Source of the DNA: Maridesulfovibrio hydrothermalis AM13 = DSM 14728
Lineage (GTDB): Bacteria > Desulfobacterota > Desulfovibrionia > Desulfovibrionales > Desulfovibrionaceae
Assembly (NCBI RefSeq): GCF_000331025.1
Contig: NC_020055.1
Location: 2,451,370 to 2,515,369, forward strand
Reading direction: 5' to 3'
DNA length: 64,000 nucleotides
Shown here: positions 55,720 to 59,626 of the stretch, piece by piece
Position numbering within the stretch: position 1 is the first letter of the stretch
How the letters are laid out: each line of letters starts with the position of its first letter
Made by a program: the position numbers and the translations under genes
The notes under the pieces: model-generated
What the model was told of the DNA's origin: nothing
The model's input: only the letters and a program-made list of their open reading frames with translations
Database searches by the model: none

Positions 55720-56667
55720 ATGAGTTTGACCAGGCGAGATTTTGTCAAAATGTGTACAGGAACTGTGGCTGGATTTGGGATTTCCCAAGTGTTCAACCCC
55801 AGTGTTGTACATGCTCTGAAGAAGTTTGTACCACATGTATTCTGGTTGCAGGGACAGGGCTGCACCGGATGTTCGGTATCTATTCTTAATTCAGTGCACC
55901 CCTCTATTGCAGAGGTTCTTTTGGAAGTAATTACTCTTGATTATCACCCGACCATTATGGGGTCCGAAGGCGCACAGGCCTGGGATCATATGATGGGCGT
56001 TGCTGGTAAAGAACAGGGTAAGTACATCCTTATTGTTGAGGGTTCCGTTCCCACTGCGGAGAACGGTCACTACTGTATCGTCGGTGCTGGTGCCGATCAT
56101 AAAGAATACACCATGTCTGAGGCCACTCTCGAGATGGCTAAGAATGCTGCAGTAGTTGTTAACGTAGGAACATGCGCCGCTTACGGTGGTATTCCTGCTG
56201 CTGAAGGAAACCTTACTGGCTCTATGTCGGTTACAAATTTCCTTGCTGAGAATGGAGTGAAGACTCCCGTTGTTAACATTCCGGGCTGTCCCCCCCATCC
56301 TGACTGGATGGTTGGTACTCTCGTTGTTGCCATCAATGCTATCGAAGAGAAAGGTCTGCAGGGCGGGCTTGCTGAAATTGTCACTATTCTTGACGATGAA
56401 GGCCGTCCCACACCTTTCTTTGGCGAAAACATTCATGACAATTGCCCCTATCTTGAGGCATTCGACAACGATGAATATGCTGAAGTTTTCACCGATCCCG
56501 AAAAATGCCGTTACGAACTGGGCTGTAAAGGCCCCAGTGCGAACTCCGACTGCTTCAAACGTAAGTGGAACGGCGGCGTTAACTGGTGTGTTGAAAACTC
56601 AGTATGCCTTGGCTGTGTAGAACCGGGATTCCCGGATGAAATGTCTCCCTTCTACGAAGCCGGTTAA
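55720..56667 (+). CDS. hysB: Periplasmic [NiFeSe] hydrogenase small subunit
   Basis: Carries the three iron-sulfur clusters that take electrons from the HysA active site. The 315-residue precursor begins with a twin-arginine signal (TRRDFVKM at residues 4-11), so the folded heterodimer is exported by Tat. The proximal cluster starts at CTGCSVS; further ligand cysteines are in GTCAAYGG, PGCPPHPDW and the C-terminal CVENSVCLGCVEPGFPD region. GGAGG lies 6 bases before the ATG. It is 24 bases from hysA, the same order as in Desulfovibrio species. Confidence 0.95.
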   Translation: MSLTRRDFVKMCTGTVAGFGISQVFNPSVVHALKKFVPHVFWLQGQGCTGCSVSILNSVHPSIAEVLLEVITLDYHPTIMGSEGAQAWDHMMGVAGKEQGKYILIVEGSVPTAENGHYCIVGAGADHKEYTMSEATLEMAKNAAVVVNVGTCAAYGGIPAAEGNLTGSMSVTNFLAENGVKTPVVNIPGCPPHPDWMVGTLVVAINAIEEKGLQGGLAEIVTILDDEGRPTPFFGENIHDNCPYLEAFDNDEYAEVFTDPEKCRYELGCKGPSANSDCFKRKWNGGVNWCVENSVCLGCVEPGFPDEMSPFYEAG

Positions 56668-56691: not shown

Positions 56692-58230
56692 ATGTCTTCA
56701 AAATCTCATGCACCCGCCAGTAAAGACGGGAAAATTAAGATTGCCATTGATCCGGTAACCCGTATCGAAGGCCACCTCAAAGCTGAGGTTGTTGTTAAGG
56801 ACGGAAAGGTTGTAGATGCATGGTTGTCAGGCGGCATGTACCGTGGCTTTGAGAATATTCTGGTTGGTCGCGATCCTCGCGATGCAGCTCAGTTGACTCA
56901 GAGACTTTGCGGTGTCTGTCCTACTGCCCACTCTACAGCTTCCTGTCTCGCACTTGATGATGCTTTTGGCGCCAAGATCACCACAAATGGTCGTGTAACC
57001 AGAAACCTCATCTTCGGTGCTAACTATTTGCAGTCACATATTCTGCATTTTTATCATCTCACAGCTCTGGACTTCGTAAGAGGGCCCGGCAAAGCTCCAT
57101 TTGTCCCCCGCTTCGAACAACCTGATCTGCGTCTTGATGAAAAAACAAATGCCGTAGCTGTTGACCAGTATATCAAGGCTCTTGAAATCCGTCGCATCTG
57201 CCATGAAATGGTAGCTCTGTTCGGTGGTAAAATGCCTCATATCTCTGGTCAGGTTGTCGGTGGTACAACTGAAATTCCTACAAAAGAAAAGCTTGCAGAA
57301 TATGCCAGCCGCTTTAAGGACGTTCAGAAGTTCATCGCAGAAGTTTACGTTCCTACCGTTTATCTTATCGGTTCCGTATACAAGGATCTGTTCAAGATCG
57401 GCGGTGGTTACAAAAACTGTATGGCTTACGGTGTTTTCCCGATGAGCGACGGCGGAGATGATTTCCTCATCAAGTCCGGCGTTTATGTTGACGGAAAAGA
57501 CGAAAAGTTTGATCCCAAGCTTATCAAAGAATTCACTAAGTACTCCTGGTACACTGATGAATGCTCTGATCTGCACCCAAGCGAAGGTAAAACAATTCCT
57601 GACGTTCACAAGAAAGACGCTTACAGCTTCTGTAAAGCTTCCCGCTACAACGGCAATGCTGTTGAAGTTGGTCCTCTTGCACGTATGTGGATTCATAACC
57701 CTGAGCTTAGCCCTATGGGTAAAAAGCAGCTTAAAGACCTCTACGGCATCACCGCGAAGAACTTCCGTGATCTCGGCGAAGATATGGCATTCTCCCTTAT
57801 GGGACGCCATGTTGCCCGCGCAGAGGAATCATATTTGGTTGCCAATGCTATTGGCGATATATGGCTCGGCGAAGTTAAAGAAGGCGAAGAAACCTACGTT
57901 AAGACTACCATGCCGGAGTCCGGCGAAGGTGTCGGCCTTACCGAAGCTCCCCGTGGCTCATTGCTGCACTACATCAACATCAAGGACTCCAAGACAGCGA
58001 ATTACCAGATGATTCCCGCTACTCTCTGGAACAGCACCCCCCGCGATGACAAAGGCATGCGCGGAACCATCGAGGAAGCCCTCGTAGGTTGTCCTGTTCC
58101 GGATCCTTCAAGTCCTGTAGATATATCAAGGATCATTAGATCCTTTGATCCATGACTGGGCTGTGCCGTGCACGTGCTGCACGCAGAGACCGGTGAAGAG
58201 CATGTTTACCACGTGGGAGAAGGCTGCTAG
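56692..58230 (+). CDS. hysA: Periplasmic [NiFeSe] hydrogenase large subunit, selenoprotein
   Basis: Large subunit with the Ni-Fe site that splits or makes hydrogen. A standard reading stops at TGA 58153, after 487 residues. The frame continues in register for 24 more codons to TAG 58228, encoding DP-Sec-LGCAVH and then the peptide VLHAETGEEHVYHVGEGC, which HysD should remove after His494. The N-terminal ligands are RLCGVCPTAHS. So the Cys of DPCxxC is replaced by selenocysteine 488. A SECIS-like hairpin follows the TGA. The full product is 512 residues. Without this reading the nickel site would be missing. Confidence 0.93.
58158..58191 (+). promoter_or_regulatory. SECIS-like hairpin of hysA
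   Basis: CGTGCA (58167-58172) pairs with TGCACG (58178-58183) around the loop CGTGC; a lower stem (GGG-CTGTG against CAGAG-CC) with two mismatches and one bulge extends it. The loop is 18-22 bases after the TGA, the usual bacterial spacing for SelB binding. Folding was done by eye. Confidence 0.65.
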
Positions 58231-58554
58231 GTTTATCTGGAAACCTACGCCACGGACCTCATGGTCCGTATTCACCGTGAAAACGTATCTTATTATATAG
58301 CAACTCCCGGACGCAGGATTCATTCCAGTGTCTGGGAGTTGTCTTTTCAGGGCGCTTTAAAACAGCTGGCTGCTCCTGAGTAATGGAAAATGGAATTCGC
58401 ACAGCTAAGTCTGTGTCGGTTTTGTATTTTTTCCTGCTTATCGCACTTTACTGTTTTGAACAGCCTGATCAAATGACTTTTTGATGGTCAACTAAGACGG
58501 GAATTTACCCGCCGAACCAACAGGGAAGAGTATGCTTTTCCCAAAGGATCGAAA
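58231..58554 (+). other. Spacer between hysA and hysD
   Basis: Contains two small hairpins (AGGTTT..AAACCT and ACGGACC..GGTCCGT) and the terminator at 58301-58346. A 33-codon frame at 58383-58484 (MENGIRTAKSVSVLYFFLL onward) has no ribosome site and is not called. Confidence 0.5.
58301..58346 (+). terminator. Terminator-like hairpin after hysA
   Basis: CAACTCCCGGAC pairs with GTCTGGGAGTTG (one G-U pair), then TCTTTTC. It should set hysA and hysB apart from hysD, so hysD may rely on read-through or its own promoter. Confidence 0.75.
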
Positions 58555-59028
58555 ATGAAGAAGCTTCTTGTATTAGGAATTGGTAATATCCTGCTTGGAG
58601 ACGAAGGCGTAGGTGTTCACGCTGTTGAAGAACTCAAGAAAGAAGAATGGCCCGAAAATGTCCACTTAGTGGACGGCGGAACATTTACACACGATATTTT
58701 TCATATTCTCGAAGGGTATGACGGACTGCTGGTTCTGGATATAGTTCATGGTAATAAGGAGCCTGGAACTATGTACTATCTGGAAGAGAAAGACATCATC
58801 CAAAATGATAAGCAGCGTTTATCTCTGCATGATATCGATCTGATTGATTCACTCAATATGGCAGGTGCAGTAGGAAAACGCCCGGACTTGCGCATTCTCG
58901 GCATGGAACCGGAAAATTACACCGAGTGGTCTATGGAAATGACAGATACGATTAAAGCTGTGTTTCCTGAATTTCTCGAAGGCGCACGGATTGAGATTAA
59001 AAAGTATATTGAAGAATTTAAAAAGTAG
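58555..59028 (+). CDS. hysD: Hydrogenase maturation protease
   Basis: Endopeptidase of the HyaD/HybD family that removes the C-terminal peptide of the large subunit after nickel insertion. The 157 residues begin with GIGNILLGDEGVGVHAVEEL, where the Glu/Asp nickel ligands lie, and continue with VDGGTFTHD. AAGGA is just before the ATG. It lies 324 bases after hysA on the same strand, and the 18-residue tail of HysA is its expected substrate. Length is normal. Confidence 0.92.
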   Translation: MKKLLVLGIGNILLGDEGVGVHAVEELKKEEWPENVHLVDGGTFTHDIFHILEGYDGLLVLDIVHGNKEPGTMYYLEEKDIIQNDKQRLSLHDIDLIDSLNMAGAVGKRPDLRILGMEPENYTEWSMEMTDTIKAVFPEFLEGARIEIKKYIEEFKK

Positions 59029-59063
59029 TTATCTGCTCTGGTATATTATTTTAAAATTACATC

Positions 59064-59097
59064 AAAAACGGCAGCCCCTGAAGGAGTTGCCGTTTTT
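59064..59097. terminator. Terminator after hysD
   Basis: AAAAACGGCA pairs with TGCCGTTTTT around a 14-base loop; the A/T ends allow use from both sides. Confidence 0.8.
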
Positions 59098-59194
59098 GTT
59101 TAGGTTCAGCTGAAAAAAATTTCCAGTGCTGGACAGGAATAGATAAGTTGGCTTTATTTACAGCAGTGTTGTATTTTTTATCTGCTGTTTTTGC

Positions 59195-59626
59195 CTAATT
59201 AGGCTCAAGGGCTTCCATCAGGCTGATGGTGAGTTTCATAAAATCTGCTTCAGTCAGGATTCCTTCAAGGCCGTTCATCTCGTTTACTACCGGCAGGCAT
59301 CCGTATTTATGGTTGAGCAGCAGATATGCTGCATCTTTCAGAAGTGTTTCCGGTGAAATGGTTTTGATACCTGTCTGCATGATTTCGCTGACCGGGATTC
59401 CGGCATCTATTTCGCCCTGCGTGGCGGGATCAATATCGGCCAGTTGTGAAATGGTTGCGCGTAGAATATCACGGTGCGTTACAAGTGCGATGAATTCTCT
59501 TTTATCGTTTACTATGGGGATATGGCGAATTCTTTGGAGATCCATCAGAGATCTGGCCATCTTCAGATTGTCGTCTTCATTAAGTGTGAATATTTCTTTT
59601 GTCATGAGATCATCAACTTTCAGCAT
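59195..59626 (-). CDS. CBS-domain pair protein
   Basis: A 143-residue protein made of two CBS repeats (LKVDDLMTKEIFTLNEDDNL and VSEIMQTGIKTISPETLLKD start them), which bind adenine nucleotides or S-adenosyl-methionine and sense energy state. There is no attached effector domain. GGAGG precedes the ATG. It is monocistronic and convergent with hysD. Partner unknown. Confidence 0.9.
   Translation of the reverse strand: MLKVDDLMTKEIFTLNEDDNLKMARSLMDLQRIRHIPIVNDKREFIALVTHRDILRATISQLADIDPATQGEIDAGIPVSEIMQTGIKTISPETLLKDAAYLLLNHKYGCLPVVNEMNGLEGILTEADFMKLTISLMEALEPN

Follow-up and report, generated by a model that had tools for sequence, protein, structure and literature searches.

The hysA gene of the window (the whole stretch of 64,000 nucleotides from Maridesulfovibrio hydrothermalis AM13 that was analyzed) lies at 56692 to 58230 on the forward strand and encodes a [NiFeSe] hydrogenase large subunit; we are close to certain that the locus is an ordinary one of its kind, in which the UGA at 58153 would be read as selenocysteine (Sec) through SelB and a hairpin downstream. 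In frame from ATG 56692, the codons for Asp486 and Pro487 are followed directly by a TGA at 58153 to 58155, and the same frame continues open up to TAG 58228 to 58230, the true stop of hysA, as the first-pass annotation of this DNA had described. With the TGA translated as U, the product is a HysA of 512 residues in which U488 is followed by LGCAVH and the 18-residue tail (VLHAETGEEHVYHVGEGC) that had been proposed. The mechanical open reading frame stops at 58155 with 487 amino acids and is 75 bases too short, stop included, which bears out the warning that an automatic call ending there would be wrong by that length. The 25 hidden codons that had been counted hold when U488 is included, since 24 residues follow it. 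Indeed, the first-pass annotation was right in every particular that could be checked, and its central claim, that hysA is a selenoprotein gene with Sec at residue 488, is supported by the family model, by the Sec genes of the genome and by the conservation of the TGA among relatives.

NCBI's HysA model NF045518 matched residues 14 to 499, across the TGA, with 876.8 bits against a cut-off of 780, and in the C-terminal CxxC motif the TGA stands where the first Cys would be (DPULGCAVH). The best solved relative was 5jsu_B, a [NiFeSe] large subunit to which residues 12 to 506 were aligned with 784 bits, the alignment running past the TGA through FDPCLGCAVHVLHAE. We take 5jsu to be the HysAB [NiFeSe] hydrogenase of Desulfovibrio vulgaris Hildenborough, whose HysA has the same DP(U/C)LGCAVHVLHAE end, with Sec presumably at residue 489 rather than 488. 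Unlike in that protein, the tail in the window is 18 residues long and ends in GC, a form shared by all 15 same-genus rows that pass the cut-off, 9 of which end in GEGC, and by L097, a row from another genus. The tail corresponds to codons 495 to 512 (58174 to 58227, forward strand) and would be removed after His494; the last residue of the solved chains 2wpn_B, 3ze6_B and 1cc1_L is the one that aligns with His494, which fits chains that have lost the tail. The 5jsu_B alignment through this region, together with the TGA found at the Sec codon in every relative over the cut-off (see below), argues that the reading beyond the TGA is not due to chance. When phage records were searched with the 1539 bases of hysA, no match was found.

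To place the codon among relatives, we read the C-terminal motif at each hysA locus recovered from the taxonomic family. HysA exceeded the NF045518 cut-off in 59 of 288 genomes, at 60 places (30 loci, 29 further loci and the window), and the Sec codon was TGA in 60/60. These come from 64 rows that bear the TGA, after exclusion of L051 (the window itself), L018 (L088 again), L019 (a metagenome bin) and L113 (partial and below the cut-off). The gene of G024 (L102) was counted as TGA, its match stopping short of the codon and its motif lying in another frame, and it carries a frameshift shortly upstream of the motif. Another 28 rows with the motif had a Cys codon (TGC or TGT) in 25 cases and TGA in three (L018, L019 and L113). 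In one set of 30 loci, the motif had TGA in two and a Cys codon in 19; nine showed no motif, of which L020 and L046 are cut short. The closest Cys-codon relative of this set, at 45%, was L021 from a Spirochaetes bin, with TGC at this place (5492 onward) and a tail that also terminates in Cys.

The first-pass annotation had asked whether selA, selB, selC and selD occur elsewhere in the genome, with an absence of all such machinery counting against Sec, and all four were found in the genome (3,708,362 bases in two contigs). The genome search gave 601.6 bits for selA (cut-off 267.9), 389.7 for selB (cut-off 242.25) and 330.8 for selD (cut-off 125), while a single tRNA-Sec exceeded its Rfam cut-off (83.3 bits against 47) and was also called by ARAGORN as tRNA-SeC with anticodon tca. 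The selD gene (L048) has itself one TGA inside its matched part (VKAAGUAAK) and terminates with another, 333 codons away, so that the genome already has one gene that uses UGA both as Sec and as stop. Furthermore, three molybdopterin genes (PF00384; L119, L122 and L123) each contain one TGA within the matched part of a long frame, in the contexts ARLUHAPTV, ARIUHSATV and ARIUHSATV. This setting is, we assume, formate dehydrogenase-like, and the three are probably formate dehydrogenase genes. Counting selD and these three, which likewise carry a TGA, the genome has at least five candidate selenoprotein genes, hysA among them.

A Cys-coded hysA in the same strain had also been put forward as a finding that would speak against Sec, and the genome search with the large-subunit model detected none. 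Apart from the hysA of the window, its matches were a long relative (L052) and a short, partial one (L053). L052 is an ordinary [NiFe]-type large subunit, with 564.2 bits to the broader model NF033181 (cut-off 600), that likewise has a tail, after a DPCIACGVH end, but TGT (Cys) at the codon, and only three of the five stem pairs of the hairpin discussed below. Its counterparts in four kindred genomes scored 382.8 to 398.7 bits with the HysA model (cut-off 780).

Bacterial SECIS elements are hairpins located immediately 3' of the UGA with G-U in the apical loop. A SECIS-like hairpin was predicted at 58155 to 58194 on the forward strand, with a core stem pairing 58168-58172 with 58178-58182 around the loop 58173-58177 (CGUGC). 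The 45 bases from 58151 fold with a minimum free energy of -20.4 kcal/mol (z -1.84), but 8 of 200 shuffled sequences reach a fold at least as stable, and folding energy taken by itself was therefore set aside as weak evidence for a SECIS. An Rfam scan of 57900 to 58600, with E values up to 10, retrieved no SECIS family; its six matches (snoZ103, BSnc120, mir-281, mir-8515, SorX and TtnuCD4) were at chance level and were discarded. Counted from the T of the TGA, the core stem (16-20 with 26-30) is paired in all 60 rows, and GT occupies loop positions 2 and 3 in all of them (CGTGC in 30, CGTGA in 12, CGTGT in 11 and TGTCA in 7). Four stem pairs are invariant, in part because the protein motif V-H-V-[LM]-H imposes them. 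The fifth, 18-28, joins the third base of Val493 to the first base of residue 497 (His, Asn or Asp) and is G-C in 53 rows, U-A in 6 and C-G in 1. None of the 25 Cys rows kept all five pairs (range, 0 to 4).

We initially considered the variation at pair 18-28 as strong covariation, and dropped this after checking the Val codons of each gene. All seven rows with a changed pair (six from one genus and one other, i.e., about two events) use for Val493 the commonest Val codon of their own gene, and the changes could thus reflect codon habit. A figure of 10 to the -26.2 from the stem comparison assumes that 38 related sequences are independent and was likewise set aside. We consequently gave weight instead to the rows in which GTG is kept despite the codon preference of the gene. 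Over the 440 codons upstream, the window hysA has 29 Val codons and none of them is GTG, while Val493 and Val495 both are. All 15 same-genus rows have GTG at Val493, although this codon makes up 0 to 19% of their upstream Val codons. Among the 53 rows with GTG, another Val codon is commoner in 22, and GTG accounts for less than 10% in 12. Taken from sequence comparison, the evidence that the predicted hairpin is a SECIS element is good but not overwhelming.

Two other readings of the TGA have to be weighed. If it were a real stop, produced by a nonsense mutation or a sequencing error, the true codon would be Cys. One relative, G151, does show a sense codon replaced by TGA: its hysA (L070) has a second, upstream in-frame TGA at 2806 to 2808 that takes the place of the Trp of ATLWN at residue 436 and looks like a nonsense change or a sequencing error. 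However, the codon at issue here is TGA in 60/60 hysA places over the cut-off, the reading frame downstream is conserved and the Sec machinery is complete, which together make a real stop extremely improbable; a nonsense mutation at 58153 in particular is in effect ruled out by the conservation of the TGA in independent genomes. Alternatively, the UGA might be read through with Cys or Trp inserted by a misacylated or near-cognate tRNA, above all under selenium scarcity, and the enzyme would then often be of the [NiFe] form. We consider this very unlikely, as the tRNA-Sec, SelB and the conserved hairpin point to programmed insertion of Sec. With selenocysteine as the preferred reading, tRNA-Sec carried by SelB would decode UGA 58153, with SelB bound to the predicted hairpin directly downstream (58155 to 58194). 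Sec488 would then be the terminal nickel ligand, in place of the Cys of [NiFe] enzymes, and HysD would cut off the 18 residues past His494 once nickel is in place. For the window protein we infer these steps (Sec insertion, nickel ligation and tail cleavage) from the known family. The sequence itself lends support to the decoding of the UGA as Sec, and the later two steps follow what is described for the family in PMC12134894 (C-terminal cleavage) and PMC9961374.

The neighborhood is that of an ordinary hysB-hysA-hysD cluster for a periplasmic [NiFeSe] hydrogenase, in which the cognate small subunit and the maturation protease, both over their cut-offs, flank hysA on the forward strand. HysB (55720 to 56667) scored 555.3 bits with NF045520 (cut-off 470) and has a twin-arginine signal (TIGR01409, 24.4 bits; cut-off 16.7), and HysD (58555 to 59028) scored 255.6 bits with NF045519 (cut-off 190). 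A search of 58200 to 59200 gave two terminator-like hairpins, against 0.8 expected, and both (58323-58337 and 58399-58416) lie in the gap of 324 bases between hysA and hysD (58231 to 58554). Because of these intervening hairpins, hysD may be transcribed less than hysA.

A recoded TGA in hysA is the norm of the [NiFeSe] family and is already published, so that it is known rather than new. In the available text of Tamura et al. (2016; PMC4730141), [NiFeSe] large subunits are described as truncated by an in-frame opal codon that is read through as Sec, SECIS elements are reported downstream of that codon, and Desulfovibrio hydrothermalis DSM 14728 is named among the species with [NiFeSe] enzymes. 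The enzyme named there is very probably the product of the window hysA, and we infer that exactly this sequence is the one depicted. The accessible text of the genome announcement of D. hydrothermalis AM13 (PMC3587943) contains neither "hydrogenase" nor "seleno-", and the available part of PMC4287179 does not mention NiFeSe. For the recombinant D. baculatum enzyme, PMC10362691 states that the SECIS was impossible to recreate in E. coli unless the protein was altered. As regards annotation, hysA should be lengthened by 75 bases and labeled as a selenoprotein gene. It adds nothing new to the biology of the family, in which Sec at this position is structurally known for [NiFeSe] hydrogenases.

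The tails of the relatives differ in length. Past the final His, they range from 4 to 25 residues across the 60 rows, mostly 15 or 18, and the short ones are VLHA (L101 from genome G008 and L103 from G010), VMHGSRA (L110), VMHAKSGA (L107), VMHAKAGA (L112) and VMHGKNEA (L108). The stop codon of hysA, in the 59 rows where it is readable, is TGA in 10, TAG in 22 and TAA in 27. In L101 and L103 the 11th codon after the Sec UGA is a UGA stop, three bases past the core stem. It may be the hairpin, and not the protein, that limits how short a tail can become. Among the literature matches listed, none of the titles or abstract openings refers to short-tailed [NiFeSe] enzymes, which is no proof that they are unpublished.

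We also compared the maturation proteases, choosing 27 genomes, of which 23 could be compared after leaving out G000 (the genome itself), G286 (no match) and G188 and G195, whose best matches group with a second, HynD-like protease. In the 11 genomes with the usual tail start (pattern V[LM][HND]A[EQNKD][ST]G), HysD is 51 to 86% identical to that of the window, whereas in the 12 with another tail it is 36 to 42% identical in nine and 52 to 57% in three (G177, G179 and G184). The nine diverged proteases (L140 to L148, from G008, G010, G178, G187, G193, G192, G191, G190 and G189) fall below the family cut-off. In all of them the LD and LH blocks retain their Asp and His. In a tree of 30 protease rows they sit on long branches, whose joins may be false according to a warning of the program. 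The HysA tails of these nine genomes are 4 to 8 residues long in four and 14 to 25 in five; seen from the other side, the six genomes with tails of at most 8 residues have a sharply diverged HysD in four cases and no clear HysD in two. Much of the difference in HysD must nevertheless be plain divergence, because HysA identity to the window is also lower in the 12 genomes with another tail (49 to 58%, versus 60 to 89% in the 11 with the usual start) and the two identities rise together over all 23 genomes (Spearman 0.86). There is still a contrast between G008 and G010 (HysA 53 to 54%, HysD 39%) and G184 (HysA 53%, HysD 52%).

These observations suggest, as a tentative proposal to which we give somewhat less than an even chance, that the HysA tail has been worn down in part of the family, with enzymes heading to minimal-tail or protease-free maturation and providing a natural test of Sec and stop UGA codons at close range. 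If this is true, genes of the L101 and L103 type would show how SelB and the release factor divide the UGA codons within one gene, and natural variants that combine worn tails, a near UGA stop and a diverged protease could offer a way to test what the cleaved peptide does in maturation.
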